DNA of 64,000 nt from Balneolaceae bacterium (GTDB lineage: Bacteria; Bacteroidota; Rhodothermia; Balneolales; Balneolaceae). Below are positions 5,310-36,002 of this stretch, in pieces. The notes under the pieces were generated by a model, which worked only from the letters and a program-made list of their open reading frames with translations, was not told the DNA's origin and searched no databases. Each line of letters starts with the position of its first letter. Positions within the stretch are counted from its first letter, which is position 1. A program made the translations under genes and the position numbers. The stretch is taken from contig CP030887.1 of NCBI GenBank assembly GCA_006969905.1, positions 1,656,001-1,720,000 of the forward strand, given 5' to 3'.

Positions 5310-8300
5310 GTGATTGTAAAAAAACTAATACTTTGGGGTATTCTGGCGATGCTATGCACTAATGTGTATGGCCAGAAGTATAACATAAAAACGTATTCGG
5401 TAAATGAAGGTTTGCCCTCCAGCCAGGTTTTTGATGTCCATTTAGATGACAATGGTATTGTCTGGTTTGGTACCGCATATGGGCTGGTTAAGTTTGATGG
5501 GTATAATTACGAGACTTTTGACAAGAAGAATGGGCTGAGAGATGAATTTATCTATGAAATTTTCGAAGATTCTGAACAGAATATCTGGGTTTCCACAGAA
5601 GCCGGAGGAGTTGCTCTTTTTCAATCGGATAGCCTGATTTATTTAGAATCACTTGCAAGATTGGATGGTAAAACCATTCAAAAAATTATCGAGTCTCCAA
5701 GCAATGAGCTGTGGTTTGGGAGCTATGAAGAGGGAATTATAGTATGGAATAAAGAAGATTCTGCATTCAGAGAAATCAGTATGAATGAAGGACTTCCCGA
5801 CACAACGATATGGGATATATACTTTGATGATGAGGGCAAAGCCTGGATTGGAACCTGGGAAGGGGTAAGCATTTATGAAGAGGGAAAGGGTGTTACTAAA
5901 GTTCTTACGGAAGCAGATGGATTAAGTGGTTATGCTGCTTACCAGGTTTTTGAAGCAAGCGACGGCCGTAAATGGATTCCTACAAGTGACGGCGTAAGTA
6001 TTATTAATAAAGACTTCAGCATAGAAGTTATCAAAGACCTTGACGGACATAAGTTAGACTATGTGTATAATATTTCGGAAGGTGATGACGGTTTAATTTG
6101 GATTGGAACAGAAAGAAAAGGACTGTTCTGGTATCATCCCGGCACAAGAGAGTCTACCCATATAAGTAAAAAGAATGGATTAAGCAGTAATTATATCTAC
6201 CGGCTGATTAAAGCAACTGACGGCACTATCTGGGTAGCAACCGATGGAAACGGGGTAAGTATTTTTAAAGACAAGCGCTTTACATTTTTTGACTCGGGAA
6301 CCCCATTCGGGTTTAATGCAGTTTTTGGAAGTCTTGTAGCTGAAGACGGTACACTCTGGTTTGGGGTAGATAATGGGTTATCAAAATATAAAAACGGAGA
6401 GTTTACATTCTTTCCTTTACCACCAGCCAAATATTTTGAACAAGAAATATGGGATATAGAAGAACTGCCTAATGGAAACTTGCTCCTGCTTACTTATGAC
6501 TTTGGAGTTATTGAATTTGATGGATCTGAGTTCAGTGATTATGTATTCAAAGAAAAACTTCCCAGTTACTATGTAAACGATATTTTAATTGACGGAGAAA
6601 GTATCTGGTTGGCTGTAGAAGATGGCATCATAAAATATGAAAAAGGAAAATTTGAGAAGTTTTCGCCGCCAAAAGAAGAGGGATATTGGTCAGCTTATAC
6701 AAATGTAGTCGAAAAAGACCGTACGGGAAATTTTTGGTTAGGTACTGAAAACGGTCTGGCATATTTTGATGGAAAAGAATTTACTTTTTACAGAGAGGAA
6801 GAGGGCTTAAAAAGTATCACCGTAAATGAAATCAAAGAAGACGCTTTTGGAAATATATGGATTGGTACCAATAAAGGCCTCTCTGTAATTGAGCAGGAGG
6901 ATATTGCCTCTAAAGAGAAAAAGGTGACCAGCTTTGATTCAGAAGATGTGTTTTTGAACGAAACTATATTTTTACAATTTGATGCTAAAGGAGGTTTATG
7001 GCAGGGTACTAATGGCGGGGTGAACTATTATAATCTTACAAATTGGTACGATGGGGGAGAAATATCTAAAATTTATTTTCCATTGCAAGATTACGGAAAA
7101 GGTGTGGAAATGAACGGGGGCTCCAGCCTGATGGACAAAGATAAGAATCTTTGGTTTGGGACTGCCAGCAAAGGGCTAATTAAGTATAATACCAATGAGG
7201 GAAGTTCTTTTCCGACAACAGCTGAACCTCCCAAAACATATATAAGATCAGTTTTAGCAAATGGTGATGTTGTTTTTGAGCAAAGAATTGGCGAACAAAT
7301 TCCTGGTAGCATTGAATTAGACTATGAGGAAAATAACCTGGAGATTCATTTTGCGGCGGTAAACTTTAAGGATCCGTACCGCATTCTCTACAAATATCGA
7401 CTTAAAGGTTTTGAAGAAAAGTGGCGCACTGAATTTGATGCTAATGAAGTAATTTATACGAGCCTGCCGGCCGGAACGTATGATTTTGAAGTAATGGCAA
7501 AATCGGTTAAGTCAGATTGGGGAACCGTTCCAGCCACAATTAAATTAACTATCGATAAACCTATATGGCTTTCCAATAGCTTCTTTTTTATGGTAGCAAT
7601 TACCCTGCTTGGTTTAATGATCCTTTATATAAATGTTCGTTTAAACATGGTAGAAAAACAAAAGCTCAAAAAGCTTGTAGACGAACAAACTAAAGATCTT
7701 ATTAATGCACTTGGTGAAAAAGAAGCATTAATCAAGGAAGTTCACCACAGGGTAAAGAACAACCTAGCGGTAATTTCGGGCTTATTTGAACTGCAAATTT
7801 GGAAGTCAAAAAATGACGCAGTTTCAAAAATCTTAAGGAACAGCCAATTAAGAATTCGTTCTATGTCAATTATCCATGAGCAGCTGTATCAGAGCGAGAG
7901 CCTTTCGAAAATTGGGTTTAAAAGATATATGGAGAACCTTATTTCAGCAATTACTGCTTCTATGGATTCAGATGAAATTGATATTGCTGTTGAAAGTGAG
8001 ATTGATGATGCTATCCATCTTACTATTACACAGGCAGTACCGTGCGGTTTAATAATGAATGAATTACTTAGCAATGCATATGAACATGCCTTTGTTTATA
8101 GATCCTCAGGAAAGATTACCATATCTATAACGCAGGAAAAAGGGAATAAAATTAGAATAATTGTTCAGGACAATGGAGTTGGTATCCCCCCTGAAAAGAT
8201 AGGCGGCACTAAAGATTCATTAGGAATGACTCTTGTAAACACATTAGTTCAACAGCTAAAGGGAGAGATTGGATACCTTAATGAAAGAGGGTCAAAGTTC

Positions 8301-8351
8301 GTAATCACATTTGAAAAAGATAAGTTTAACGTGGGTTTTATTGATAAATAA
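5310..8351 (+). CDS. Propeller sensor histidine kinase (Reg_prop/Y_Y_Y/HisKA_2)
   Basis: 1013 residues. A signal peptide is followed by many two-component regulator propeller blades (recurring IWFGT..GL and DG.IWVAT motifs) to about residue 620, then a Y_Y_Y-type beta domain (YKYRLKGFEEKW), one transmembrane helix near 752-775 and a short coiled linker. The HisKA_2 box HHRVKNNLAVISG has candidate phospho-accepting His812/813; the HATPase_c domain has an N-box LIMNELLSNAYEHAF near 914 and a DNGVGIPP G1 box. No receiver or DNA-binding domain is fused, so a separate response regulator is expected. The start is GTG, preceded by AAGGA at 5298-5302. The ligand is unknown; oligosaccharides are typical for relatives. 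Confidence 0.88.
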   Translation: MIVKKLILWGILAMLCTNVYGQKYNIKTYSVNEGLPSSQVFDVHLDDNGIVWFGTAYGLVKFDGYNYETFDKKNGLRDEFIYEIFEDSEQNIWVSTEAGGVALFQSDSLIYLESLARLDGKTIQKIIESPSNELWFGSYEEGIIVWNKEDSAFREISMNEGLPDTTIWDIYFDDEGKAWIGTWEGVSIYEEGKGVTKVLTEADGLSGYAAYQVFEASDGRKWIPTSDGVSIINKDFSIEVIKDLDGHKLDYVYNISEGDDGLIWIGTERKGLFWYHPGTRESTHISKKNGLSSNYIYRLIKATDGTIWVATDGNGVSIFKDKRFTFFDSGTPFGFNAVFGSLVAEDGTLWFGVDNGLSKYKNGEFTFFPLPPAKYFEQEIWDIEELPNGNLLLLTYDFGVIEFDGSEFSDYVFKEKLPSYYVNDILIDGESIWLAVEDGIIKYEKGKFEKFSPPKEEGYWSAYTNVVEKDRTGNFWLGTENGLAYFDGKEFTFYREEEGLKSITVNEIKEDAFGNIWIGTNKGLSVIEQEDIASKEKKVTSFDSEDVFLNETIFLQFDAKGGLWQGTNGGVNYYNLTNWYDGGEISKIYFPLQDYGKGVEMNGGSSLMDKDKNLWFGTASKGLIKYNTNEGSSFPTTAEPPKTYIRSVLANGDVVFEQRIGEQIPGSIELDYEENNLEIHFAAVNFKDPYRILYKYRLKGFEEKWRTEFDANEVIYTSLPAGTYDFEVMAKSVKSDWGTVPATIKLTIDKPIWLSNSFFFMVAITLLGLMILYINVRLNMVEKQKLKKLVDEQTKDLINALGEKEALIKEVHHRVKNNLAVISGLFELQIWKSKNDAVSKILRNSQLRIRSMSIIHEQLYQSESLSKIGFKRYMENLISAITASMDSDEIDIAVESEIDDAIHLTITQAVPCGLIMNELLSNAYEHAFVYRSSGKITISITQEKGNKIRIIVQDNGVGIPPEKIGGTKDSLGMTLVNTLVQQLKGEIGYLNERGSKFVITFEKDKFNVGFIDK

Positions 8352-8368
8352 AAGGCACACTTTTATTT
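8346..8368. terminator. Bidirectional terminator shared by two convergent stops
   Basis: AAATAAAAG at 8346-8354 pairs perfectly with CTTTTATTT at 8360-8368 around GCACA. The stem contains both stop codons: the kinase TAA (8349-8351) and the TAA of the minus-strand crotonase (8363-8365). A/T-rich flanks give U-runs on both strands. Confidence 0.65.
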
Positions 8369-9124
8369 CTTTTTGAACTGCGTAATGAAGTTTTTTGTGT
8401 AGTCAGAAAGCACTAACCTACCACTAACCTCAGCCCGTTGTTCCAGCAAATCATCCCAGTGCTCGGTACCTTTCCATAAAACCAGTTTCAATTCCTGCAT
8501 GGCTTCCGGACTGCTTTTTGATAACTGAATTGCAAGAGTCTCCACAGCAGAATCGAGTTCTTCAGTAGTTTCAAATTCCTGATTAAATAGTCCTTTTTGA
8601 GTAGCCCAGGTAGAATCGTACCAGTTAGTAGCATCAACCGCCATTGCTGAAAAAGCAGAAGTTCCAACTGCCCGTTCTACAGCAGGGCCAACCACAAACG
8701 GCCCAATTCCAAGTGCCAGTTCACTAAGCTTTACCGAGGCACCTTTTTTTGCAAAGGTATAATCTCCGGCAGAAGCAATCCCAACACCTCCACCAACAGT
8801 TTTACCATGCACTCTCACTATGATGAGTTTGGGACAAGTACGCATTGCATTTAAAACCAGAGCAAAGCCCATGAAAAATTGCTTGCCTGTATCGAAGTCT
8901 TCAATAGCAATCAATTCATCAAAAGAAGCTCCGGCGCAAAACGCCCCTTCTCCCGAACTCTTAATTACAATTACTTTTATTTCATTATTGTTACCAGCAT
9001 CATCTATAGTATTAGCCAGTTTTCTGAGAATAGCTCCTGGGAGAGAGTTTCCTTTTGGATGGGAGAACTCAATAGTTCCGATGTTGCTGGTGATAGCTAA
9101 TTCGACATTTCCGTTAGAGGACAT
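8363..9124 (-). CDS. Enoyl-CoA hydratase/isomerase family protein at the end of the paa operon
   Basis: 253 residues, crotonase fold. Oxyanion-hole motifs are visible (GAFCAGASFDEL and HGKTVGGGVGIASAGDYTF). Of the two catalytic glutamates of classical enoyl-CoA hydratase, the second is kept (in VKLSELALG), but the first position, after GGGV, is Gly. Position in the cluster suggests a PaaF-like role (hydration of 2,3-dehydroadipyl-CoA), but the missing Glu makes an isomerase or lyase activity possible. It is the last gene of the minus-strand paa operon. Its 5' leader carries the octamer array at 9139-9210, about 15 bp upstream of the ATG. Confidence 0.8.
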   Translation of the reverse strand: MSSNGNVELAITSNIGTIEFSHPKGNSLPGAILRKLANTIDDAGNNNEIKVIVIKSSGEGAFCAGASFDELIAIEDFDTGKQFFMGFALVLNAMRTCPKLIIVRVHGKTVGGGVGIASAGDYTFAKKGASVKLSELALGIGPFVVGPAVERAVGTSAFSAMAVDATNWYDSTWATQKGLFNQEFETTEELDSAVETLAIQLSKSSPEAMQELKLVLWKGTEHWDDLLEQRAEVSGRLVLSDYTKNFITQFKKK

Positions 9125-9138
9125 ATTTGTTAGTTTTT

Positions 9139-9210
9139 CAGGAGTTCAGGAGTTCAGGAGTTCAGGAGTTCAGGAGTTCAGGAGTTCAGGAGTTCAGGAG
9201 TTCAGGATTG
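9139..9210 (+). repeat. 8-bp tandem array, left arm of four-helix module 1
   Basis: Eight perfect copies of CAGGAGTT run from 9139 to 9202 and are followed by one variant copy, CAGGATTG. The array lies between the crotonase start and the four-helix gene and supplies that gene's last codons and TGA stop. An octamer shifts through all reading frames. It corresponds to the heptad arrays at the other modules. Copy number could vary by slippage. Confidence 0.95.
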
Positions 9211-9550
9211 ACCTCCCGTAGCTTGAAAGCATTTTACTTACTTCTTCAAGAAGATTATTTAAGCTTTCGGTTGAGCCATATCCTAAATCTTGAGCGAGTA
9301 TAAGGTAATATCGACATTCTTCCAATGAGCCTTGTGCTATATTCATAAATCTTGCTTTGTCTTTTCTACCTCTTTTTTTGAATCCTTCAGCTATGTTAGC
9401 GGCTATTGAAACAGATGCTCTTCGATATTGTGAAGTCAGCCCATAAAGTTCTTCTTTAGGAAAACCTTTTGTGTAGGTATAACTTTCAAGTACAAATTGA
9501 TGTGCTTTTTGCCAAACTAAAAGGTCTTTAAATGTTTTAGCTGGTTTCAT
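9194..9550 (-). CDS. Four-helix bundle protein, S23/Avd family (module 1)
   Basis: 118 residues from the ATG that gives MKPAKTFKDLLVWQKA. It has the family pattern: an LVWQKA N-terminal helix, FPKEELYGLTSQYRRASVSI, then SIAANIAEG, a basic KKRGRKDK stretch and a GSLEECRYYL helix. Relatives are encoded inside 23S rRNA intervening sequences (S23, TIGR02436) and include the Avd accessory protein of diversity-generating retroelements; the fold is a pentameric basic four-helix bundle thought to bind nucleic acid. The C-terminus (SILNS and stop) is written by the adjacent octamer array. It sits between paaZ and the crotonase gene, codirectional with the operon. Confidence 0.85.
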   Translation of the reverse strand: MKPAKTFKDLLVWQKAHQFVLESYTYTKGFPKEELYGLTSQYRRASVSIAANIAEGFKKRGRKDKARFMNIAQGSLEECRYYLILAQDLGYGSTESLNNLLEEVSKMLSSYGRSILNS

Positions 9551-9613
9551 GGTATAAAAGTTGATTTCAGAATTACTCAAGTAAGACAGGTTCAAAGCAA
9601 TTCCTTACAAAAT

Positions 9614-9650: not shown

Positions 9651-11726
9651 TTAAACCAAATCGATATCCAGTTTATTCTTTCTTTTAACCAAAGTTAAGA
9701 TGGTGTATTCAGCTACTAAAATCTCGTCCTGATTTTTTACTTCTACATCCCAATAAACAACACCAAACGGAAATAAATCGCCTTCCCGTTGTTGTCGAAC
9801 TGTTTTTCGCTTTACAATTAGCTTGGTCGTGATGGTATCTCCGGGTGCAACAGGTGCAAGAAAAGAAAGACTTTCAAGCCCGTAGTTCAATAATACTGGG
9901 CCTTCATCCGGGTGAACAAACTGACCAGCAGCAGCAGATAATACAAAATAACCATGAGCTACTATTTTACCGAACAGAGATCTTGAAGCGGCATCCGGAT
10001 CAGTATGAGCATAAAAGTGATCCCCAGAAAGGTTGGCAAAATCTTCTACATCTTTATCTGTAACAGTTCGTGGTTCCGATAAAAGAGACTGACCAACTTC
10101 CAATTCCTCAAAGTGCATTTGAAATGGATGTTTTGGAGCTTCTTTGGTTTCAGCACCTTTAATATGTTGCTGAACAATATTCATCAAAGTAGTAGGAGAT
10201 CCTTGCAGAGCTATGCGTTGCATATTGTGGAGTACCGCTCGTGCTCCACCAAGCTCTTCGCCACCACCGGCACGCCCAGGTCCACCATGAACCATATGCG
10301 GCATTGGGGAGCCATGCCCGGTAGATTCTCCTGCTGAATTTCTGTTGATGACCATAAAACGACCGTGGTAAGGAGCACATCCTAAAGTGATTTCAGCGGC
10401 CACATCATCATCAGCTGTGAACAAAGAGGCCACCAATGAGCCATCCGCTTTATTTGCTATTTTAATTGCTTCCCGAACAGAATCATACGGCATAATAGTA
10501 GTCATAGGCCCGAATGCCTCGACTTCATGTACTTTGTCAACTTTTATAGGTTGATGACAAACCAAAACTTTTGGACTTGTAAAGGCTCCTTCGTGAATTC
10601 CATTTGAATACACAGTTTCTGTTACATCTTCTAAAACAGCCAATTGTTCATCAAATCGTTCTGCTTGCAGGCTTGAAGCAAGCGGCCCCATCCGTGTTTC
10701 TTTTTGAGTTGGATCACCGATCGTCGTTTTAGATAAGAAATTTTTTAGAGCCTCAGATACATCCTCAACTCTTTTTCTGGGAACGATGGTTCTTCGTATA
10801 GCTGTACATTTCTGGCCTGTTTTAACGGTCATTTCCATCCCAACTTCTTTGATGAATAACCCAAATTCTTCCATGTCGGGAGTAACATCAGGGCCAAGAA
10901 TAGAAGCGTTCAGGGAATCGGCTTCCATATTAAACTGAACGGAATTATCAACAATATTAGGATGTGACTTCAATTTCTTTCCGGTTGTTGCCGATCCGGT
11001 GAAGGAAACAGAATCCTGGCTATTCAAATGATCAAGAAGATCGCCGGGTTTGTCAGCAGCAATGAATTGTACACTTCCTCCCGGAAGAATTTCAGATTCA
11101 ACTATATCTTTGAATACTTCATAAGCAAGATAAGAGCCAACGGGAGAAGGTTTAACGATGCATGGGAGCCCAGCCATAATAGCCGGTGCCAGTTTTTCTA
11201 CCATTCCCCAAACAGGGAAGTTAAAAGCATTAATGTGAACGGCTATTCCATGCTTAGGAACACAAATGTGTTGTCCCACAAAAGTTCCACCTCTGGACAA
11301 CCTCTCCGTTCCGCCTTCTACATGAAAGGGGAGGTCGGAAAGCTCTCTTCTTGCTTTACTTGAAAGAACAAACATGGAACCAAAACCACCTTCAATGTCA
11401 ATCCAGGAATCCTTTCTGGTAGCACCAGTATGAGAAGAAAGCTCATAGTACTTTTCCTTTCGGTCCATCAAGTAAGCAGCGAGGAATTTGATTTTGAAGG
11501 CTCTTTGATGGATGGATAATTTCCTTAATTCAGGTCCGGCAACTGACCGCCCATAATCGAGTGCCGATTTATAATCTATTACCGTATCAACTAATGTGGC
11601 AACAGTACTGCCATCAATCGCACTGATCAAATCTGATTCAGAACCTTCAGTTAACCATTTGCCTTGTATATAACTCTTTACTCGTTTACCGTTACTCGTT
11701 TCTTCTGTCTTTTTTTTGGTTGACAT
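9651..11726 (-). CDS. paaZ: PaaZ: oxepin-CoA hydrolase / semialdehyde dehydrogenase
   Basis: 691 residues, close to the usual 680 or so. The N-terminal aldehyde dehydrogenase domain oxidises 3-oxo-5,6-dehydrosuberyl-CoA semialdehyde: candidate catalytic Glu268 (FNMEADSLN) and nucleophile Cys307 (KTGQKCTAIRR). The C-terminal MaoC-like (R)-hydratase (about 535-690, with NLSGDHFYAHTDP) opens the oxepin-CoA ring. The normal family N-terminus corresponds to KSYIQGKW; here about 16 extra residues (MSTKKKTEETSNGKRV) precede it, and much of that stretch coincides with a heptad array (11670-11704). A real start nearer KSYIQG cannot be excluded, but no other good start codon is seen. The gene follows four-helix module 2. 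Confidence 0.92.
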   Translation of the reverse strand: MSTKKKTEETSNGKRVKSYIQGKWLTEGSESDLISAIDGSTVATLVDTVIDYKSALDYGRSVAGPELRKLSIHQRAFKIKFLAAYLMDRKEKYYELSSHTGATRKDSWIDIEGGFGSMFVLSSKARRELSDLPFHVEGGTERLSRGGTFVGQHICVPKHGIAVHINAFNFPVWGMVEKLAPAIMAGLPCIVKPSPVGSYLAYEVFKDIVESEILPGGSVQFIAADKPGDLLDHLNSQDSVSFTGSATTGKKLKSHPNIVDNSVQFNMEADSLNASILGPDVTPDMEEFGLFIKEVGMEMTVKTGQKCTAIRRTIVPRKRVEDVSEALKNFLSKTTIGDPTQKETRMGPLASSLQAERFDEQLAVLEDVTETVYSNGIHEGAFTSPKVLVCHQPIKVDKVHEVEAFGPMTTIMPYDSVREAIKIANKADGSLVASLFTADDDVAAEITLGCAPYHGRFMVINRNSAGESTGHGSPMPHMVHGGPGRAGGGEELGGARAVLHNMQRIALQGSPTTLMNIVQQHIKGAETKEAPKHPFQMHFEELEVGQSLLSEPRTVTDKDVEDFANLSGDHFYAHTDPDAASRSLFGKIVAHGYFVLSAAAGQFVHPDEGPVLLNYGLESLSFLAPVAPGDTITTKLIVKRKTVRQQREGDLFPFGVVYWDVEVKNQDEILVAEYTILTLVKRKNKLDIDLV
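11670..11704 (-). repeat. Heptad array inside the paaZ 5' coding end (left arm of module 2)
   Basis: On the minus strand five consecutive seven-base units run from 11704 to 11670, for example GAGTAAC and GAGTAAA, one of them deviating as GGTAAAC. They form codons of the extra PaaZ N-terminus. The inner part is inverted relative to 12124-12133: TACTCGTTTC at 11693-11702 pairs perfectly with GAAACGAGTA there. Units read away from the four-helix gene, unlike modules 1, 3 and 4. Confidence 0.65.
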
Positions 11727-11728
11727 AA

Positions 11729-12094
11729 TTATGATTGTGTTCTTTCTACAGACTGAATAAAGAGATTCAGTTTCTTTCCAAGTTTATCATTTACCTCAAT
11801 TAGTTCAAGGTAAAGTTCTTTGTTTTTAAGAGATTGTGTTTCATATAAAGAATCCAAATGATCTCTGGTCTCATCATTGGAAGCTAATGCAAAAATCAAA
11901 AACCGAATGTATTCCTTTTTATAAGTTCTTCGACCATAGCCTTCCACAATGTTTGATCTCACAGATTTCGAAGATCTTCTTATTTGACTTCCGGTCTCAT
12001 ATAGCTCAAACTTTGGAAGTTTTAAACTCATTTCATGAATTTTATTCGATTGCTCTTTTGCAAGCTGCCATATTTCAGAATTTCTATAACTCAT
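11729..12094 (-). CDS. Four-helix bundle protein, S23/Avd family (module 2)
   Basis: 121 residues. The family core is present but divergent: an [16 protein letters not shown] helix, [20 protein letters not shown] and NIVEGYGRR, a [14 protein letters not shown] helix and a C-terminal [13 protein letters not shown]. It is the least similar of the four copies, lacking the GS..E.ET stretch of copies 3 and 4. A nucleic-acid binding role is inferred from family only. It lies between a gene of unknown function (12139-12585) and paaZ, ending two bases before the paaZ start, so it is translated within the paa transcript. Confidence 0.8.
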
Positions 12095-12118
12095 AAAATT
12101 GAATTAAACACAAAAAAA

Positions 12119-12154
12119 GACGAGAAACGAGTAGCCAGCTACGAGTTTTTCTCG
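12119..12154 (-). terminator. Hairpin with T-tract at the module 2 right arm (possible attenuator)
   Basis: Read on the minus strand, CGAGAAA..CTCGTAGC folds against GCTACTCGTTTCTCG (two mismatches and a two-base bulge) and is followed by TC and a run of seven T. This is the shape of an intrinsic terminator, inside the operon just after the stop of the 12139 gene and before four-helix gene 2. It may lower expression of paaZ and later genes. It also coincides with the heptad array at 12122-12149. Confidence 0.45.
12122..12149 (+). repeat. Heptad array, right arm of module 2
   Basis: Four in-phase seven-base units from 12122, such as GAGAAAC, GAGTAGC and, last, GAGTTTT. The array overlaps the C-terminal codons and TAG stop of the 12139-12585 gene, so it also writes that protein's last residues (GEKNS). 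Confidence 0.65.
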
Positions 12155-12585
12155 CCTAATCTTTTTGGGTGGTTATCTGCTTCCTGTAACTCGTCAAAAG
12201 CCTTTTGAAAGTTTTTCATGAGCTCCATGTATTGCTGAGAACTTTCTTCCCGATCCTCAATTTTCCTGCTTCTTAAACTTTCATTCTCCGCGCACCTGAT
12301 AAAGCGCCAAAACTCAAACTCAACCAAAAGATCATTTTCAAATTCCAAATAAATCATCCCGTTTTCATTTACTGATCTGAATTTAAATCTGGCCGAGGCG
12401 TATCCGGTAACGGGAGATGTGCCATTCGACATGTAAAGGTTTAAATCTTTTGTAGTCACTTTAACATAACCAATAGCTTTAGCAATGTTCCAGCAATGGA
12501 TGATGTCCCCTTCACGCCAGTGCAGAATTTCGGGATACCAAGTATGAGGTGGTTTGCCCTTTTTTTTATTTCTGAACAAGCCCAT
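12139..12585 (-). CDS. Unknown protein, tandem paralog A in the paa operon
   Basis: 148 residues; I do not recognise the family. It shares with the neighbouring 12587-13015 gene an N-terminus of basic residues followed by WYPEILHWREGD, a central beta-rich region with an FEFWRFIRC motif, and a C-terminal helix with SSQQYMELMKNFQKAFDELQE. No signal peptide or membrane helix, so probably cytoplasmic. The C-terminal tail is encoded by the heptad array at 12122-12149. It is two bases from its paralog. Either a domain binding a paa protein or an inserted accessory pair is possible; nothing in the sequence decides. Confidence 0.7.
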   Translation of the reverse strand: MGLFRNKKKGKPPHTWYPEILHWREGDIIHCWNIAKAIGYVKVTTKDLNLYMSNGTSPVTGYASARFKFRSVNENGMIYLEFENDLLVEFEFWRFIRCAENESLRSRKIEDREESSQQYMELMKNFQKAFDELQEADNHPKRLGEKNS

Positions 12586-12586
12586 T

Positions 12587-13015
12587 TTATTTGAGTAAAT
12601 TTTTTGTTTTATCGGATTCTTCCAGCTCGTGATAAGCTTTTTGAAAGGTATTAATTAACTCCATGTATTCTTTTGAGGATTTTAAATCCTGCTCTATAGA
12701 GCGATCTCTAAGGCTTAGATTAATGGCATTCTTGATAAATTTTTTGAATTGAATCTTATATAAGCGACCTGAATCTTTTTCTGCAATAATGATAAACCCC
12801 CGGTCTGTTATACCTTTATACAAATACACATTTGTAGGAATAGCATCTTTATCAATTATTGCATCAATACGAAGCATTAAATTTTGAATGTAATTATTGT
12901 ATTCTACTTCACCATAGTCAATGCTTCTTATCTCATCACCTTCTTTCCAGTGTAAAATTTCTGGATACCATACATGTGGTGCTTTTCCTGCTTTTTTTAT
13001 CTTAAACGAGCCCAT
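12587..13015 (-). CDS. Unknown protein, tandem paralog B in the paa operon
   Basis: 142 residues, paralogous to the 12139-12585 product: KIKKAGKAPHVWYPEILHWKEGD at the N-terminus (about residues 5-27) and SSKEYMELINTFQKAYHELEE at the C-terminus (about 114-134), with a more divergent middle. Predicted soluble. It lies four bases after paaY and two before paralog A, so the pair is cotranscribed with the phenylacetate genes. The conserved ends and variable middle suggest a domain with two fixed surfaces; the function is unknown. Confidence 0.7.
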   Translation of the reverse strand: MGSFKIKKAGKAPHVWYPEILHWKEGDEIRSIDYGEVEYNNYIQNLMLRIDAIIDKDAIPTNVYLYKGITDRGFIIIAEKDSGRLYKIQFKKFIKNAINLSLRDRSIEQDLKSSKEYMELINTFQKAYHELEESDKTKNLLK

Positions 13016-13619: not shown

Positions 13620-14828
13620 TTATACTTTCTCCAAAATAACAGCAAATCCCTGACCAACTCCTACACATAAAGTACAGAGCGCATACTTAGCGTTCTCTTT
13701 TTCATGGAGTTCGATAGTTGCTGTTTGCAGTAAGCGTTGCCCGGTCATACCCAGCGGGTGACCAATAGCTATAGCACCTCCATTTGGATTCAACCGCGAG
13801 TCATTATCTTCCAAGCCTAGCATTCTGGTTACACCCAACGATTGACCTGCAAAAGCTTCATTAAGCTCAATGATATCCATATCGTTTAAATTAAGTCCTG
13901 CTCGATTCATTACTTTGTTAGTAGCCTCAACAGGTCCAAGTCCCATAATTCGAGGTTCAATTCCAGAAACCGCAGAAGCAACAATTCGGGACTTTGGTTT
14001 CAAATGGTATTTCTTAACGCCTGAATCTGAAGCTACTAATAAAGCTCCGGCACCATCATTTAACCCGGAAGCATTTCCAGCTGTAACCGAGCCATCTTTT
14101 CGAAAAGCCGGACGAAGTTTTCCAAGTATTTCCGGGGTCGAATCTGGTCGCATAAATTCATCATGCTCAAAAATAATCGGATCACCTTTTCTTTGTGGAA
14201 TCTCTACCTTTACAATTTCTTTTGCCAATCGGCCTGAATCTCTGGCTGCTCCCGCTTTTTGTTGGCTCCATGCTGCGAATTTGTCCTGATCTTCACGGGA
14301 GATATTATGCATTTTAACCACATTCTCTGCGGTCATTCCCATGCCATCTGTTCCATACATCTCATGCATTTTTGGGTTCACAAATCGCCATCCAAACGTA
14401 GAGTCGTGCATCTGGTTTGTTCCGGACCATGGAGTGTTTCCTTTACCTAACACAATTGGACCTCTTGTCATGTGTTCCACGCCACCAGTTATAAACAGAT
14501 CACCTTCTCCGGCTTTTATCGCATGGTATGCCTTGATGGTTGCACTCATTCCGGAAGCACATAACCGGTTCACGGTTTCTCCAGGCACAGAAACAGGCAG
14601 TCCTGCTAACAAAGCAGCCATTCGGGCTACATTCCTGTTATCCTCACCAGCTTGATTGGCACATCCGAAGATTACATCTTCAACAGCGGCCGGATCAATC
14701 TCAGGATTTCTTTTTAACAGTTCTTTGATTGGTATGGCTGCCAAATCATCTGCTCTGACAGATGAAAGGGAACCTTTCAGTTTCCCGATTGGAGTTCTGA
14801 TTCCATCAATGATATACGCTTCGCTCAT
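13620..14828 (-). CDS. paaJ: 3-oxoadipyl-CoA thiolase (PaaJ/PcaF family)
   Basis: 402 residues, full-length thiolase. The acylated cysteine is Cys90 (NRLCASGM); the C-terminal GHPLGMTG histidine and CVGVGQG cysteine motifs are intact. The PcaF/PaaJ-like insertion HDSTFGWRFVNPKM separates it from ordinary acetyl-CoA acetyltransferases. It cleaves 3-oxoadipyl-CoA to succinyl-CoA and acetyl-CoA and the earlier dehydrosuberyl intermediate, the last steps of the pathway. The heptad array 14831-14872 begins two bases upstream of its ATG. Confidence 0.92.
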   Translation of the reverse strand: MSEAYIIDGIRTPIGKLKGSLSSVRADDLAAIPIKELLKRNPEIDPAAVEDVIFGCANQAGEDNRNVARMAALLAGLPVSVPGETVNRLCASGMSATIKAYHAIKAGEGDLFITGGVEHMTRGPIVLGKGNTPWSGTNQMHDSTFGWRFVNPKMHEMYGTDGMGMTAENVVKMHNISREDQDKFAAWSQQKAGAARDSGRLAKEIVKVEIPQRKGDPIIFEHDEFMRPDSTPEILGKLRPAFRKDGSVTAGNASGLNDGAGALLVASDSGVKKYHLKPKSRIVASAVSGIEPRIMGLGPVEATNKVMNRAGLNLNDMDIIELNEAFAGQSLGVTRMLGLEDNDSRLNPNGGAIAIGHPLGMTGQRLLQTATIELHEKENAKYALCTLCVGVGQGFAVILEKV

Positions 14829-14830
14829 AA

Positions 14831-14872
14831 TAGTAATGAGTAATTAGATTTTAGTATTTAGTTTAAAGAATT
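14831..14872 (+). repeat. Heptad array, left arm of four-helix module 3
   Basis: Six perfectly phased seven-base units, each with AG at positions two and three (first TAGTAAT, third TAGATTT, last AAGAATT). The last units cover the stop codon (14858-14860) and final codons of the four-helix gene. The stretch 14839-14856 is the exact reverse complement of 15221-15238. Confidence 0.9.
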
Positions 14873-15208
14873 TGAAAGAGAATAAATCATTTTCTGAATT
14901 TCATTTATTGATTCAGAAAGTTGATCTAGTATACTATTATCAATAAAGCCTAAATTTTTGGAAATAGTTAATTGAGTTTCCAATTCTGAGCAAGAACCAT
15001 AAACATAATTAAGAAATAGCTTGAACTCTTTTTTTGAATTTCTTCCAGCTCCTTCTGCTACATTGGAACTAATTGAAACAACACTCCTTCTAATTTGTGA
15101 TGTTATTCCAAACTTTTCTTCTTGCGGAAAGTTTTTAGTAGCCGAATAAACTTCAGTGGCAAGTTCTACTGCTTTTTGCCAGACTTTCAATTCCTTAAAC
15201 TGGTGCAC
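14858..15208 (-). CDS. Four-helix bundle protein, S23/Avd family (module 3)
   Basis: 116 residues from a GTG start (MHQFKELKVWQKAVEL). A textbook family member: ELKVWQKAVELATEVY, FPQEEKFGITSQIRRSVVSI, SSNVAEGAGRNSKKEFKLFL, then GSCSELETQLTISKNLGF and a final INEIQKMIYSL helix. Closest in the window to copy 4. Basic surface residues fit nucleic-acid binding, as proposed for Avd; this is family knowledge, not seen here. It sits between paaI and paaJ, codirectional, enclosed by a perfect 18-bp inverted repeat. Confidence 0.88.
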   Translation of the reverse strand: MHQFKELKVWQKAVELATEVYSATKNFPQEEKFGITSQIRRSVVSISSNVAEGAGRNSKKEFKLFLNYVYGSCSELETQLTISKNLGFIDNSILDQLSESINEIQKMIYSLSNSLN

Positions 15209-15211
15209 TTA

Positions 15212-15246
15212 TATACTCCATACTAAAATCTAATTACTAACATCTA
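15212..15246 (-). repeat. Heptad array, right arm of four-helix module 3
   Basis: On the minus strand five phased units run from 15246 to 15212 (first TAGATGT, third TAGATTT, last GAGTATA) toward the four-helix start codon. The first TAG is the stop codon of paaI (15244-15246). Contains the 15221-15238 half of the perfect inverted repeat. Confidence 0.9.
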
Positions 15247-15651
15247 CCACTTACCAGTTCTGTAAACGGTGCCGCGAAAATCGGCTACCAAATCATCATG
15301 TTGATTAATAACTCTGATCTTATAGACACCAATAGTTTTTCCGTTTTGAATTTCTTCTGTTTCGGCAATTAGTGTATCGCCGACTTCTACCTTTTTGGTG
15401 TAATTGATATTGTTTTCCAGAGCAACAGAGACTGAACCTCTCGAATTTGAAGCAAAAGCCAGAGCACTGTCCGCTAAGGAAAAAGTAATACCACCATGAC
15501 AAATACCAAAACCATTACACATTTCTTCTCTGATCTTGATCGACAATTTAATGTACCCTGATTTAAATCCTTCAACTTCAATCCCCATCCATTGGGAGAA
15601 TGAATCTTTCTCAAACATTGAGTCTATAATTTGATCAGCTTTTTTATCCAT
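15244..15651 (-). CDS. paaI: PaaI-type hotdog thioesterase
   Basis: 135 residues, single hotdog domain. The active-site region GICHGGITFSLADSALAFASNS (about residues 49-70) contains the HGG motif and the acidic residue on the long helix used by PaaI. It hydrolyses ring-hydroxylated phenylacetyl-CoA or other stalled thioesters and frees CoA. Its TAG stop is the first triplet of the heptad array of module 3, and a gene-less inverted heptad pair lies just upstream of its start. Confidence 0.9.
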   Translation of the reverse strand: MDKKADQIIDSMFEKDSFSQWMGIEVEGFKSGYIKLSIKIREEMCNGFGICHGGITFSLADSALAFASNSRGSVSVALENNINYTKKVEVGDTLIAETEEIQNGKTIGVYKIRVINQHDDLVADFRGTVYRTGKW

Positions 15652-15656
15652 AAAAC

Positions 15657-15692
15657 TAGTTTGAAAGTATCCAGTTTTCAGAATTCAGTTAA
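15657..15692 (+). repeat. Heptad array, left half of a gene-less inverted pair
   Basis: Units of seven with AG at positions two and three: after an eight-base TAGTTTGA come AAGTATC, CAGTTTT and two more. 15672-15690 is an exact 19-bp reverse complement of 15700-15718, separated by nine bases. No T-tract follows on the minus strand, so it is not an obvious terminator. Confidence 0.85.
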
Positions 15693-15697
15693 ATATC

Positions 15698-15726
15698 ATA
15701 ACTGAATTCTGAAAACTGACTCACTG
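15698..15726 (-). repeat. Heptad array, right half of a gene-less inverted pair
   Basis: On the minus strand an eight-base unit (CAGTGAGT) and three seven-base units (CAGTTTT and two others) run from 15726 to 15698, two bases after the paaH stop. Partner of the array at 15657-15692. Confidence 0.85.
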
Positions 15727-15727
15727 A

Positions 15728-16891
15728 TTACTTCCTCTCCCTCACTTTTCTTTTCAATAATGGATTAGGTCGATATCTGTCTTCCTGGTATTCATCGTAC
15801 AAAGCATTCATTCTTTCCAGGACTGTCTCTAAACCGATCTCTTCAGCCCAGGCAAGTAACCCCTTAGGATAATTGACTCCGTTTTGCATGGCAAGGTCTA
15901 CATCCTTAGCTGAACCGATATTCATAAATACGGCATCGAACGCTTCATTGATGAGCATCACTAAAATACGGTGTAGGATTTCCTGTCCAAGCTCTTCATC
16001 AGTTTTTGGGTCACTATTTTTGGCGTCTTCACCATAATTATAGAATCCTTTGCCTGATTTTCTTCCCAGCCATCCTGCTTCTACTAACCGCTTTTGAGTA
16101 AACGAAGGTTTAAAACGTGGATCATAATAAAACTCTCTAAATACCGAACTGGTCACTTCGTAATTCACATCATGGCCAATTAAATCCATTAACTCGAAAG
16201 GTCCCATTCGGAAACCGCCAAGTTCTTTCATTGCCCAATCGATGGTTGGCACATCTGCAATACCTTCTTCAAGAATCCGAAGGGCTTCAGAATAAAAAGG
16301 TCGGGCTACACGATTCACTATAAATCCGGGAGTATCTTTGGCTAACACGGTAATCTTTTCCCAACCCGAAATAAATTCTTTTGTTGAAGTAGCTAATTCC
16401 AAATTCGTAGCAACCCCGGGAATGATCTCAACCAGCTTCATAAGGGGTGCAGGATTGAAAAAATGTACCCCTAAAAATCGTTCTGGTTTTTTAAGTGCTG
16501 AAGAAATGGATGCAATAGAAAGGGAAGAAGTATTGGAAGCCAGAATACAATCTTTAGGAATTATAGCCTCCAATCTTTGAAAAGCATCTTTTTTGATATC
16601 GATATTCTCAATAATGGCTTCGATCACAAAGCCACATTTTCCAAAATCGGTAATGTTATCTGGAAAATGAATACGTCCAAGAATACCATCAACTTCATCT
16701 TGGCTCATTCTTCCTTTTTCCACCTGGCGGTTCAGAATCTTCTCTAACCCTGCTTTGGCTTTCGGAAGCTGTTCTGGATATGCATCATATAAATATACAT
16801 CATGTCCATTCGTAGCCGCAATTTGAGCAATTCCGGTACCCATAGTTCCCGCACCAATGATTCCTACTACAGTATTTTTGTCTAAGCTCAT
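15728..16891 (-). CDS. paaH: 3-hydroxyacyl-CoA dehydrogenase (PaaH)
   Basis: 387 residues. The N-terminal Rossmann domain has GIIGAGTMGTGIAQIA for NAD binding; the catalytic region contains GVHFFNPAPLMKLVEII. The 3HCDH C-terminal domain follows (GFIVNRVARPFYSEALRI, GPFELMDLIGHDVNYEV) with a partial second copy at the end. It oxidises 3-hydroxyadipyl-CoA to 3-oxoadipyl-CoA. It is shorter than the E. coli protein (about 475), mainly because the second C-terminal repeat is reduced. The start overlaps the stop of the DUF4260 gene by 4 bp. Confidence 0.9.
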   Translation of the reverse strand: MSLDKNTVVGIIGAGTMGTGIAQIAATNGHDVYLYDAYPEQLPKAKAGLEKILNRQVEKGRMSQDEVDGILGRIHFPDNITDFGKCGFVIEAIIENIDIKKDAFQRLEAIIPKDCILASNTSSLSIASISSALKKPERFLGVHFFNPAPLMKLVEIIPGVATNLELATSTKEFISGWEKITVLAKDTPGFIVNRVARPFYSEALRILEEGIADVPTIDWAMKELGGFRMGPFELMDLIGHDVNYEVTSSVFREFYYDPRFKPSFTQKRLVEAGWLGRKSGKGFYNYGEDAKNSDPKTDEELGQEILHRILVMLINEAFDAVFMNIGSAKDVDLAMQNGVNYPKGLLAWAEEIGLETVLERMNALYDEYQEDRYRPNPLLKRKVRERK

Positions 16892-32059: not shown

Positions 32060-34414
32060 ATGGGCAATAACAGAAGAATCCGAAAAGTAGCCGTACTTGG
32101 ATCAGGAGTTATGGGTAGTCAAATTGCGGCTCATTGTATAAATGCGGGCCTTGAGGTTATTTTGCTTGACCTTAAAAGTGATGATCCAAAACTCCCTGAT
32201 AAAATAGCCGAAGAGAGTGTTCAGAAAATACTAAAAATGAAGCCTGCTCCTTTTGCACTCCCTGAGTTTGCTTCGAGAATAAAACCGGGTAATTTTGAGG
32301 ACGATCTTCATCTGCTTGCAGATTGTGACTGGATATGTGAGGTTATTATTGAGCATATGGACATCAAAAAAAACATGATGTCGAAGATTGAAAACATTCG
32401 GAAACCGGGTGCAATCGTGAGTTCAAACACTTCCGGCTTACCCATATCTGAAATCAGTGAAGATTGTGGTGAGGATTTTAAAAAACACTTTTTAGGCACG
32501 CACTTCTTTAATCCTCCAAGGTATATGAAATTGTTGGAGGTTATTCCCACGCAGCACACTTTGCCTGAGATTTCCTGCTTTATGCATGGCTTTTGCGAAA
32601 GAGTACTTGGTAAAGGAGTTGTGCTTTGTAAAGACACTCCAAACTTTATTGCAAACAGGATTGGTATTTTTTCTATCGGTAGCATGATGCCCTATTTTTT
32701 TAATGGAGATTTCAGGGCTGAAGAAATCGATTTACTTACAGGAACCTTAACAGGGTATTCAAAAGCAGCCACATTTAGAACAGCTGATATGGCGGGTCTT
32801 GATGTAACACTTCATGTGGCTAATAACATTATACCTTCCATTCCCAAAGATGAGAAAAACGAAATATTTGATTTACCGGAACCATTCAAAAAAATGGTTG
32901 AGTCAGGCATTATAGGTAATAAAGCCGGGCAAGGATTCTACAAAAAAGTTCAGCAGGGAAGTAAAAGAGAGTTTCTGGTAATTAACTCAGACACTTTAGA
33001 ATATGAATCCCAGGAAGAGTTGGACGATCCGGTAATTGCTGAAGCAAGGAAAATTAGAAGCACACCGGAAAGATTAAAGTTCTTAGCATTTACTGAAGGC
33101 AGAGTTGGGCAATTTATCTGGGAAACCCAGCGAGAGTTATTGCTATATGCTGCAAACCGGGTCCCTGAGATTTCCGATAATCCTCAGGATGTAGACAGAG
33201 CGATGAAGTGGGGTTTTAACTGGCAGCTGGGGCCATTTGAGCGGTGGGATGCACTGGGAATAGATGCAGTAATAAAAAGAGTGAAAAATGAAGGAATAGA
33301 GATTCCGCCATTAATTTCTGAAATGAAAGAGGCGGGAATTACTTCATTCTACAAAGAGGGAAAGGTATATGATCCTGTTTCAAAATCATACAAAGATGAA
33401 AATCCTTCCGCTGCCGGAGAAGTCAGGATATCTTCATTAAGGAAAGAGAAGAAGCCAGTTATGGAAAATGACTCTGCTGCTTTGCATGATATCGGAGACG
33501 GAGTTGCTTTATTTGAATTCAAAACTAAGAATGCAACACTTGGTTTTGAGCTGGTCCAGTCATTGGAAAAATCACTTGATTTGGTCGAAAAAGATTTTGC
33601 TGCAATGGTGATTTCTCATGATGGTGAAAACTTTGCTTATGGTGCCAATCTTATGGAGGCAATACAGGCAAACCAGTCAGGAGATTGGGAAAAAGTTGTG
33701 GAAGCTGTTACCGGATTTCAAAGAACAGCAGTTAAACTAAGGTATGCACCTTTTCCTGTAGTGGCCGCTCCCTTCGGAAGAACGCTGGGTGGAGGCACAG
33801 AATTTTGTTTGTATTCAGATAAAGTAGTAGCTCATCATGAGCTATACATGGGATTAGTAGAAGTGGGCGTGGGATTGATTCCGGCCGGTGGAGGAACTAC
33901 TGAGCTATTAAAACGGGCTATGAATAAACTTGATGGCGCGGCTGATCCGCTTCCGTTTATTCGGGAAGCATTCAAAACTATGGGGATGGCTACTGTATCT
34001 GATAGTGCTCATAAAGCAAGAGAATTAGGCTTTTTGAGACAATCAGATATTATCGTAATGAATAGAGATTTGCTCATCAATGTGGCAAAGAAAGAAGCCA
34101 TAGCATTGGTAAGCTCTGGTTATCAGCCGCCTGCAAAAACGGATATCAAAGTACTCGGTGAAACTGCTTTGAGTGCTATGAAACTGATGCTTTATGTAAT
34201 GCATAAGTCTAAGTTTATAACTGATTATGACAGGGTAGTAGTTGAGCGATTAGCTTTTGTACTTGCAGGGGGAGATTTAAGTGAAGCCCAGGAGGTGCCT
34301 GAAGAGTATCTGTTGAAACTGGAAAGAGATACCATCCTTGAATGTTTAAAAGATGAAAGAACAATTGCCCGGATGGAACACATGTTGAAAACCGGAAAAC
34401 CATTGAGGAATTAG
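32060..34414 (+). CDS. fadN: FadN-like 3-hydroxyacyl-CoA dehydrogenase / enoyl-CoA hydratase
   Basis: 784 residues. Domain order is dehydrogenase first (VAVLGSGVMGSQIAAH; THFFNPPRYMKLLEVIP) and crotonase last (about 470-680, APFGRTLGGGTEFCLYSD and GLVEVGVGLIPAGGG, with both hydratase glutamates kept). This order is that of Bacillus FadN rather than E. coli FadB. It carries out the two middle steps of beta-oxidation. The stop TAG (34412-34414) is inside a heptad array, and the adjoining thiolase is separated from it by four-helix module 4. Confidence 0.88.
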   Translation: MGNNRRIRKVAVLGSGVMGSQIAAHCINAGLEVILLDLKSDDPKLPDKIAEESVQKILKMKPAPFALPEFASRIKPGNFEDDLHLLADCDWICEVIIEHMDIKKNMMSKIENIRKPGAIVSSNTSGLPISEISEDCGEDFKKHFLGTHFFNPPRYMKLLEVIPTQHTLPEISCFMHGFCERVLGKGVVLCKDTPNFIANRIGIFSIGSMMPYFFNGDFRAEEIDLLTGTLTGYSKAATFRTADMAGLDVTLHVANNIIPSIPKDEKNEIFDLPEPFKKMVESGIIGNKAGQGFYKKVQQGSKREFLVINSDTLEYESQEELDDPVIAEARKIRSTPERLKFLAFTEGRVGQFIWETQRELLLYAANRVPEISDNPQDVDRAMKWGFNWQLGPFERWDALGIDAVIKRVKNEGIEIPPLISEMKEAGITSFYKEGKVYDPVSKSYKDENPSAAGEVRISSLRKEKKPVMENDSAALHDIGDGVALFEFKTKNATLGFELVQSLEKSLDLVEKDFAAMVISHDGENFAYGANLMEAIQANQSGDWEKVVEAVTGFQRTAVKLRYAPFPVVAAPFGRTLGGGTEFCLYSDKVVAHHELYMGLVEVGVGLIPAGGGTTELLKRAMNKLDGAADPLPFIREAFKTMGMATVSDSAHKARELGFLRQSDIIVMNRDLLINVAKKEAIALVSSGYQPPAKTDIKVLGETALSAMKLMLYVMHKSKFITDYDRVVVERLAFVLAGGDLSEAQEVPEEYLLKLERDTILECLKDERTIARMEHMLKTGKPLRN

Positions 34415-34439
34415 TTTTGAGCTTTGAGAAATGAGAAAG
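34405..34439 (+). repeat. Heptad array, left arm of four-helix module 4
   Basis: Five in-phase seven-base units from GAGGAAT (34405) through TAGTTTT to GAGAAAG. The array overlaps the last codons and TAG stop of fadN and the ATG of the four-helix gene (34431). It is inverted to the arm at 34781-34808: 20 of 26 aligned positions agree. Confidence 0.85.
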
Positions 34440-34784
34440 TATAAAGATTTAATTATTTGGCAAAGATCGGTTGAATTTGCCACTTCAATATATAGGGTTA
34501 CATCTGAATTTCCTTCAGAAGAAAAATATGGACTTATTAGCCAAATGAGACGTTGCTCAGTTTCAATTCCATCAAATATTGCTGAAGGAGCAGGTAGAAG
34601 TTCAGATAAAGAGTACCAAAGATTTTTGGATATAGCGTATGGATCTGCTTATGAACTTGAAACTCAAATTTTCATCTCCTCTAATCTGGGATTTATTGAC
34701 CCAGATGATTTTGAAATATTGACAAGCGAGATTAATGAAATTCAGAAAATGATTTTTTCATTTAATAGAAAACTAAAAGAATAG
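34431..34784 (+). CDS. Four-helix bundle protein, S23/Avd family (module 4)
   Basis: 117 residues. Family core: LIIWQRSVEFATSIY, FPSEEKYGLISQMRRCSVSI, SNIAEGAGRSSDKEYQRFL, GSAYELETQIFISSNLGF and INEIQKMIFSF. About half identical to copy 3, whose junction is in a different operon on the other strand. It is codirectional with fadN and fadA; start and stop codons both fall inside the flanking heptad arrays. Confidence 0.88.
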   Translation: MRKYKDLIIWQRSVEFATSIYRVTSEFPSEEKYGLISQMRRCSVSIPSNIAEGAGRSSDKEYQRFLDIAYGSAYELETQIFISSNLGFIDPDDFEILTSEINEIQKMIFSFNRKLKE

Positions 34785-34808
34785 CTCATTGCTCAAACCT
34801 CAAATCTT
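34781..34808 (-). repeat. Heptad array, right arm of four-helix module 4
   Basis: On the minus strand four phased units run from 34808 to 34781 (AAGATTT, GAGGTTT and two more), toward the gene. It begins on the four-helix stop codon and ends 12 bp before the thiolase start. Confidence 0.85.
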
Positions 34809-34820
34809 AGAACTGTTGAA

Positions 34821-36002
34821 ATGAAAGAAGCATATATAGTTGCAGCTTCACGCACTGCCTGTGGAAAAGCCAATAAGGGTTCACTTCGGTTTTCCCGGCC
34901 AGATTCATTGGGGGGAGCGGTAGTTAAAGATCTTTTGAAAAGAGCTCCCGGAGTGCAACCCAGTATGATCGATGATGTAATAATGGGATGTGCCTTCCCT
35001 GAAGCTTCTCAGGGATTGAACATAGCTAAACAAGTAGCTGCACTAGGTGGATTGCCAGAGTCTGTTCCGGGTGTAACTGTGAACAGATTTTGTTCTTCAG
35101 GACTTCAAACCATTGCGATGGCCGCAGAGCGGATTATGGTTGGCGCAGCAGACGTAATAATAGCAGGAGGAGTGGAATCAATGTCGCTGGTTCCTATGGG
35201 AGGAATGTCAGTTCAACCAAATCCTGAATTGGTTGACAACAATCCTGAAATCTATATCAGTATGGGATTGACTGCTGAAAATGTAGCTCAAAAGTATGGA
35301 GTGAATAGGGAAGATCAGGATGAATTTGCTTATCAAAGTCATCAAAGAGCTATATCAGCATGGGAAAGCGGGAAGTTTGATTCACAAATAACACCTATAG
35401 AAGTAGTTGAGAAAAAAGTAAGTGCAGAAGGCGAGATTATTGAAGAACACTTTACCTTCAAAAAAGATGAAGGGCCAAGAGCAGATACTTCGACAGAAAT
35501 TCTTGGAAAGCTTCGCCCGGTTTTCAAAATGGGTGGTTCAGTCACAGCAGGGAATTCATCTCAAATAAATGATGCAGCTGCCGGAGTGATCGTAATGAGT
35601 GGTGAAAAAGTAAAAGAATTGGGACTAAACCCGATAGCCAGATATGTAGGGTTTTCAGTTGCTGGCGTAGCTCCCGAACTGATGGGCATCGGGCCGGTAG
35701 AAGCTATTCCGAAAGTACTCAGGTTGTCAGGCTTATCTTTAAGCGATATGGATATAATTGAATTAAACGAGGCATTTGCTGCACAGGCTTTAGCTGTTAT
35801 AAGAGAACTTGGAATTGACCGGGAAATCACTAATGTAAATGGAGGTGCCATTGCGATGGGACACTCTCTGGGTTGTACCGGCGCAAAGTTGACCACTCAA
35901 ATACTTCATGAAATGCAGCTTCGAAAATCGAAATACGGAATGGTAACTATGTGTATTGGTGGCGGGATGGGAGCTGCCGGAATTTTTGAGAACTTGAGTT
36001 GA
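34821..36002 (+). CDS. fadA: Acetyl-CoA C-acyltransferase (thiolase, FadA-like)
   Basis: 393 residues. Nucleophile Cys91 (NRFCSSGL), the NEAFAAQAL loop, GHSLGCTGAKL histidine and CIGGGMGAAG cysteine motifs are all present. Catalyses the final cleavage of beta-oxidation. Follows fadN as in Bacillus-type fadNA operons, but with a four-helix gene in between. It is distinct from the paaJ thiolase, lacking the STFGWRF-type insertion. Confidence 0.9.
   Translation: MKEAYIVAASRTACGKANKGSLRFSRPDSLGGAVVKDLLKRAPGVQPSMIDDVIMGCAFPEASQGLNIAKQVAALGGLPESVPGVTVNRFCSSGLQTIAMAAERIMVGAADVIIAGGVESMSLVPMGGMSVQPNPELVDNNPEIYISMGLTAENVAQKYGVNREDQDEFAYQSHQRAISAWESGKFDSQITPIEVVEKKVSAEGEIIEEHFTFKKDEGPRADTSTEILGKLRPVFKMGGSVTAGNSSQINDAAAGVIVMSGEKVKELGLNPIARYVGFSVAGVAPELMGIGPVEAIPKVLRLSGLSLSDMDIIELNEAFAAQALAVIRELGIDREITNVNGGAIAMGHSLGCTGAKLTTQILHEMQLRKSKYGMVTMCIGGGMGAAGIFENLS

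Follow-up and report, generated by a model that had tools for sequence, protein, structure and literature searches.

To our knowledge, S23p/IVP proteins, which are common, have no known function, and we are aware of no explanation for intergenic heptamer repeats, which have gone without one for decades. In 23S rRNA intervening sequences (IVSs) that carry an S23p ORF, as in Coxiella, Leptospira and Brucella, a PF05635 ORF lies in the loop of terminal inverted repeats (PMC4990558). In Coxiella, GACAGAT heptamers precede S23p, and the IVS has a 28-bp terminal stem and is excised by RNase III in vitro (PMC4990558). Otherwise, heptamer repeats and IVSs are described separately in the open-access literature (PMC4679880, PMC4692102, PMC4990558, PMC2700814), in which we found nothing that joins the two beyond the remark on Coxiella. 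Here, we describe an element with the same layout as these IVSs in a Balneola genome. Unlike them, it lies between the protein genes paaI and paaJ and not inside a 16S or 23S rRNA gene, and because of this location we treat it as IVS-like and do not file it as an rRNA IVS. Its ORF is under purifying selection, whereas the Coxiella S23p ORF has been described as decaying (PMC4990558).

The element between paaI and paaJ

The window, by which we mean the whole 64-kb stretch of DNA that was analysed, contains the focal element, its host genes and further IVP elements:

9194..9595, minus strand: third IVP gene of the paa operon, with an array of period 8 at 9121-9219
11729..12094, minus strand: second IVP gene of the paa operon, with period-7 arrays at 11668-11724 and 12106-12147
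13620..14828, minus strand: paaJ-like thiolase, downstream host gene (Pfam Thiolase_N/C)
14830..14870, plus strand: 3' array (inverted), six NAG heptads TAG, GAG, TAG, TAG, TAG, AAG, the inner two overlapping the ORF end (sequence and lag-7 statistics)
14839..14857, plus strand: arm of the exact 19-bp inverted repeat (repeat search and resampling)
14858..15208, minus strand: IVP/S23p gene, PF05635 (23S rRNA-intervening sequence protein), 116 aa, GTG start, four-helix-bundle family
15214..15248, minus strand: 5' array (gene sense), five NAG heptads GTAG, TTAG, TTAG, TTAG, GGAG in exact 7-nt phase (sequence and lag-7 statistics)
15220..15238, minus strand: partner arm of the exact 19-bp inverted repeat (repeat search and resampling)
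15244..15651, minus strand: paaI, hotdog-fold thioesterase, upstream host gene (Pfam 4HBT), its stop codon inside the array
15662..15733, no strand: gene-less heptad hairpin at the paaH-paaI junction, with a TTCAG-type word that is the same as in the third IVP element
34443..34757, plus strand: fourth IVP gene in the window (Pfam match range), with arrays at 34396-34460 and 34768-34822

The focal protein matches PF05635 over the whole domain and above the curated cut-off (E = 4e-40, 136.7 bits, profile positions 1-105 of 106). A phmmer search retrieved the structures 2GSC (2e-20) and 2RLD (2e-4), each with five chains, and the family has been crystallised as homopentamers (2GSC, 2RLD). For same-site IVP copies, dN/dS is 0.03-0.08 (Nei-Gojobori, only pairs with estimable synonymous divergence), which indicates that the protein is maintained by purifying selection. 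Besides PF05635, the single ORF gives a weak bAvd match, and no transposase, nuclease or recombinase family was found in the element with Pfam.

Sequence inspection and a repeat search place the exact inverted repeat at 14839-14857 and 15220-15238, within a wider arm pair (14839-14865 / 15212-15238) that matches at 24 of 27 bp. Exact inverted repeats of at least 18 bp occur twice in the real 64-kb window, as the focal repeat and as the gene-less hairpin at 15672-15720, and in none of 60 Markov-resampled 64-kb windows (loop of at most 600 bp). Both arrays also stand out by lag-7 identities, with 20 of 30 at 14831-14867 (P ~5e-4, shuffling) and 21 of 35 at 15212-15253 (P ~4.5e-4, shuffling). On the low side, the inward-reading strand carries six AG cores spaced exactly 7 nt apart (14832, 14839, 14846, 14853, 14860 and 14867), the last two of them within the stop and last codons of the IVP ORF. 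The high side has five on the minus strand (15244, 15237, 15230, 15223 and 15216), of which the first is supplied by the paaI stop TAG (15246-15244) and the last belongs to a Shine-Dalgarno-like GGAG just before the IVP GTG start.

The structural claims of the first-pass annotation, which had been made from the letters alone, hold up well. Its 18-bp exact inverted repeat (14839-14856 / 15221-15238) is real and one base longer than reported, and its six left and five right heptads in seven-base phase agree with the AG-core count. It had also read the paaI stop TAG as the first triplet of the right array and placed the stop of a four-helix gene inside the left array; the former does provide the core of the first heptad, and the left array does overlap the stop of the IVP gene. 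That the enclosed ORF is a real gene is confirmed by the PF05635 match and purifying selection.

Its relatives place the window in or near the genus Balneola. The genome has 11 IVP genes, four of them in this window, and at each of the 11 the ORF is bordered directly by inverted arrays of period 7 or, in some cases, 8. Conversely, all six period-7 arrays that reach the threshold within the window adjoin IVP genes. Gene-less hairpins were counted in the window and in fetched regions.

Several smaller features were seen in and around the operon. Period-8 arrays take the place of period-7 arrays at some IVP elements, as at 9121-9219 in the window and in the 8282-8605 region of L196, and the paaH-paaI junction in G001 and G002 has 8-nt GAGTTCAG units in differing number. 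Between paaY and paaZ (12139-13015) lie two paralogous small genes, without an assigned family and ~38% identical, with up to four copies in G007 and one in others.

Heptad arrays at IVP loci

IVP was found in 232 of 296 genomes sampled from the phylum, and the full comparison covers 326 IVP loci from several phyla, most of which have inverted period-7 (some period-8) arrays immediately outside the ORF. For the 163 loci from the window's phylum, autocorrelation is in excess at 7 and 14 only, by +0.070 upstream and +0.102 downstream in the immediate flanks, and there is no period-7 excess in their far flanks or in the ORF. Individually significant period-7 arrays were found upstream of 80 and downstream of 76 of these loci, and period-8 arrays at 26 and 20, with periods 5, 6 and 9 near background; about half of the single arrays thus fall short of individual significance. 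When the two flanks of a locus are compared in inverted orientation, 71% of the 163 loci score higher than the 95th percentile of pairs drawn across loci. The period-7 effect was seen again in two further sets. One comprised 40 additional Bacteroidota loci together with 25 loci of other phyla; the other, in which the excess was +0.108/+0.161, comprised 98 loci (Cyanobacteriota, Pseudomonadota, Nitrospirota and others). Avd genes, of a sister family, served as a control and had arrays in 0 of 19 and 0 of 18 cases, compared with 115 of 221 and 89 of 221 for IVP, in a control set that is small and includes some mis-called or redundant ORFs.

The arrays share the consensus TNAG(T/A)NN. At either end the AG is found on the strand that points towards the gene, and the wrong polarity is rarer. 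In-phase AG cores number three or more per 42 nt in 143 of 180 arrays, compared with 14 after shuffling, and the base preceding AG follows the order T > G > A > C in the first set. Among nonredundant, Bacteroidota-dominated loci, 59 of 100 runs of length 4-6 have exactly five consecutive NAG heptads (expectation 31%, P = 1e-8), in a test from which relatedness of the elements was removed only in part. In the other-phyla set the peak was not replicated (12 of 40, P = 0.62, strict AG count), and hence the match of five-unit runs to the IVP pentamer, noticed after seeing the data, is suggestive only. Left and right unit numbers are not correlated.

A second conserved piece, GTAAGGA-N about 12-GGTCTTAC, a possible hairpin, lies at 9581-9608 on the minus strand. 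It precedes 22 of the 163 IVP genes (including those of L009, L010, L047, L055, L086, L089, L151 and L166), among which the heptads differ considerably, and it follows none. On a Pseudanabaena plasmid (L267, 901-1260), an IVP gene sits between cas6 and cas4 with long AAAAGCT / CCAAAAG arrays on both sides.

The link to rRNA comes from a Pseudomonadota locus (L394), in which the IVP lies inside a 23S rRNA gene, the cmscan LSU match spanning it. Five heptads precede its ORF (TTCAGGA ATCAGAG TTCAGGA ATTAGGT ATCAGAA) and five follow it (TCTGATC CCTGATC CCTGACC TCTGATT CCTGA). Together with the Coxiella IVS, this five-plus-five arrangement indicates that the rRNA IVS and the operon element have one architecture in common; a search of 16 loci for further 23S-embedded IVPs found none. 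In two respects the comparison goes beyond the earlier annotation: the heptads belong to IVP genes generally, and the closest known relative of the element is the 23S rRNA intervening sequence.

The arms of an element match each other better than they match the arms of relatives, even among same-context loci (14.6-15.7 for own arms versus 9.6-12.9 for cross-arms), which indicates that the two ends change in concert. The focal RNA is predicted to fold with z = -6.1, and predicted minimum-free-energy pairs between arms number 30.5 for own arms versus 11 in swapped controls. At the focal site itself, the arms pair in silico about equally with a swapped partner array. Mismatched positions in the arms comprise 61 G-U wobbles versus 78 A-C mismatches; with no G-U excess, these counts lend no support to selection on an RNA stem, and we rejected it. 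The concerted arms may just as well have a cause at the DNA level.

Among 134 IVPs, 105 point the same way as both neighbours, and 16 run antisense to a pair of codirectional genes. When loci in different gene contexts are compared, the heptads are more similar the more identical the IVPs are, and none of 500 permutations gave as strong a relation. This co-variation is as expected if the arrays travel with the protein gene or are read by the protein, and it can also be plain co-inheritance.

Turnover at paa operon junctions

The junctions of the paa operon were read singly in 12 genomes, and elements of this kind have been gained, lost and swapped there, with neighbouring junctions taking other IVP types. 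At paaI-paaJ, a type A IVP (84-85% identical, TTAGTNN heptads) is found in G002, G003, G006 and G007 of the same genus, and copies at 68-78% in G010 and G028 of another genus. A type B IVP (~59%, TAAGATN heptads) occupies this junction in G001, G004 and G024, heptad hairpins without a gene in G009, G018 and G031, and the junction is empty in G005 (66 bp) and G014 (42 bp). At paaJ-paaY, one IVP type is present in G001, G002, G005 (with a stop), G006, G007 and G024, another in G003, an antisense IVP in G014 and a hairpin only in G010 and G028, while G000 and G004 are empty. Occupancy differs again at hypB-paaZ and paaZ-ech. A one-sided TTNAATT heptad array was also seen at the paaZ-ech junction (L191, L193, L194), where G002 differs from G001 and G007 by exactly three units (21 bp).

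G001 and G002 are closely related, with a synonymous difference of 0.25-0.28 in paaH, paaI and paaJ, yet their IVPs have a dN of 0.33. In G001 the swapped block, which resembles G004, begins ~35 bp ahead of the paaI stop and reaches the paaJ start, and short-tract homologous replacement explains this cassette swap best. The divergence of type A is about that of the neighbouring genes, and hence the focal copy is probably old and not a recent insertion. No near-identical recent copies were found among the 11 IVPs of this genome.

Near-identical IVP pairs within one genome were also considered as candidates for recent transposition, and they gave no clean event: L394/L395 reflect an rRNA operon duplication, L396/L397 a large duplication and the third case a repeat-rich Nitrospirota region. 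Around 1950-2480 of L392 and L393, from a Nitrospirota genome, an IVP pseudogene with heptads is present in duplicate; the surroundings are rich in repeats and possibly CRISPR-like.

These comparisons bear on the mobility that the first-pass annotation had proposed. Arms, heptads and gene do belong together as a single unit fitted to the paaI-paaJ junction, and such units come and go among relatives, but a recent or single mobile insertion at this site is not supported, given the same IVP type, with changed arms, at the same junction in G002, G003, G006, G007, G010 and G028, a finding that the annotation itself had named as counter-evidence. The drifted arms it expected of an old fixed structure were not what we saw, given that the arms changed together instead. 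The uninterrupted junction it had asked for does exist in relatives (G005 and G014), but no target-site duplication was recognised, as these empty sites and those at paaJ-paaY in G000 and G004 are too diverged or too short.

Explanations and known systems

We lean towards the explanation that the module is an IVS-type element between paa cistrons, consisting of one IVP/S23p gene and inverted TNAGNNN arrays as its ends, with the heptads read by an IVP ring. Judged by architecture, polarity and co-variation, the arrays are likely to be functional ends, and the simplest functional interpretation would be that the IVP ring reads them. The heptads would be candidate recognition sites of a ring-shaped IVP oligomer, with about one NAG heptad per subunit, comparable to TRAP and (G/U)AG. 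IVP bound at the 5' array, including the Shine-Dalgarno-like GGAG, could control its own translation, and binding to both arrays would mark the two ends of the element. In the transcript, the arms may pair and loop out the gene, as rRNA IVSs are removed by RNase III, and such predicted looping-out would allow operon junctions to tolerate the element. Spread would occur by rare insertion and by homologous replacement of the entire cassette.

A DNA-level mobile element is an alternative to which we give appreciable credence, though clearly less than an even chance. Here the arrays would be multi-site ends bound by IVP and moved by a host or trans-acting recombinase, gene-less hairpins would be non-autonomous derivatives and the RNA stem would have no role. 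The inverted-symmetric NAG polarity at both ends, the lack of G-U excess in the arms, gene-less hairpins at the same junctions and the repeated occupation of paaJ-paaY by different IVP types in both orientations all fit it. However, there is no transposase family, no target duplication was seen and the 11 IVPs include no near-identical recent copies; the strong sense bias (105 versus 16) is also unexpected, although selection for expression may explain it. Presence and absence in close species argue in turn against a non-mobile autoregulatory or operon-regulatory RNA-binding protein, with the 5' array as mRNA operator and the 3' array as its pairing partner. This is unlikely despite an array that adjoins the IVP start with GGAG inside its last heptad, (G/U)AG-rich triplets as in TRAP (PMC3913778), purifying selection on IVP and a predicted stem, given that the 3' array shows the polarity of the 5' array on the other strand and the wobble signal is missing.

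It is very improbable that ordinary slippage produced the arrays as simple sequence repeats, which would build up beside weakly constrained genes and have nothing to do with the protein. Copy number does vary by whole units (the 21 bp of G002 versus G001 and G007) and long perfect arrays occur, but only periods 7 (some 8) are enriched, on both sides, inverted, with one polarity and one core, the tested Avd genes have no arrays and units this degenerate are not the product of recent slippage. We give almost no weight to the idea that heptads place stop codons in three frames (7 being coprime to 3) and insulate the upstream host gene. Arrays do contain stops in all three frames more often than shuffled sequence does (0.57 versus 0.32) and the paaI stop lies inside one; however, triplets of any periodic array reach all frames, TAA is depleted and stop enrichment on the sense strand is no stronger than on the antisense strand, and we rejected this role on the stop-codon counts.

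Other origins were tried and rejected. Dependence on a reverse transcriptase, as in a diversity-generating retroelement, is at odds with the absence of RVT_1 from most Balneola genomes (six of eight), with IVP genes present in all of these. The gene-less hairpin gives only sub-threshold, meaningless microRNA matches to known RNA families, and a phage origin found no backing, with no protein match in 50,697 phage records.

Returning to the IVS-type element with a heptad-reading ring, a wider proposal would be that PF05635 proteins are sequence-reading rings, with one NAG heptad per subunit and arrays of about five, and that orphan heptads (STRRs, TAACTGA arrays and gene-less hairpins) come from a single widespread class of IVP elements, living in operons and rRNA genes, as their ends or remnants. 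We put this forward tentatively, as a little short of an even chance. If true, the rRNA intervening sequence would be one habitat of a general operon-dwelling element. Tying IVP proteins to heptamer repeats also gives both the same concrete question, namely whether the ring binds its own array.

Known systems share parts of this arrangement. TRAP is a ring protein that binds spaced (G/U)AG triplets, one per subunit, wrapped round the ring (PMC3913778); unlike IVP, for which binding is proposed by analogy, it is an unrelated protein, an 11-mer, and its triplets have 2-3 nt spacers. Omega/ParB of pSM19035 likewise uses unspaced 7-bp repeats, the parS heptads, with one protein unit each (PMC9499535), but it is a ribbon-helix-helix protein with the word WATCACW and a partition function (PMC9499535). 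Avd of diversity-generating retroelements (PF22296) belongs to a related four-helix-bundle family, by a weak profile match, but its partner is a reverse transcriptase and, unlike IVP, the tested Avd genes have no heptad arrays. Closest to the arrays themselves are the intergenic period-7 arrays of cyanobacterial STRRs, the G-rich heptamers of Xanthomonas and Nostoc (PMC4692102) and the TAACTGA repeats of Beggiatoaceae (PMC4679880), which sometimes form inverted pairs or hairpins and often lie near start codons (PMC4692102, PMC4679880). As in STRR-type repeats, the focal arrays are tandem 7-nt units in intergenic DNA, with degenerate units in phase. These repeats have been described without a link to IVP, whereas the focal arrays are the ends of a gene-bearing element.
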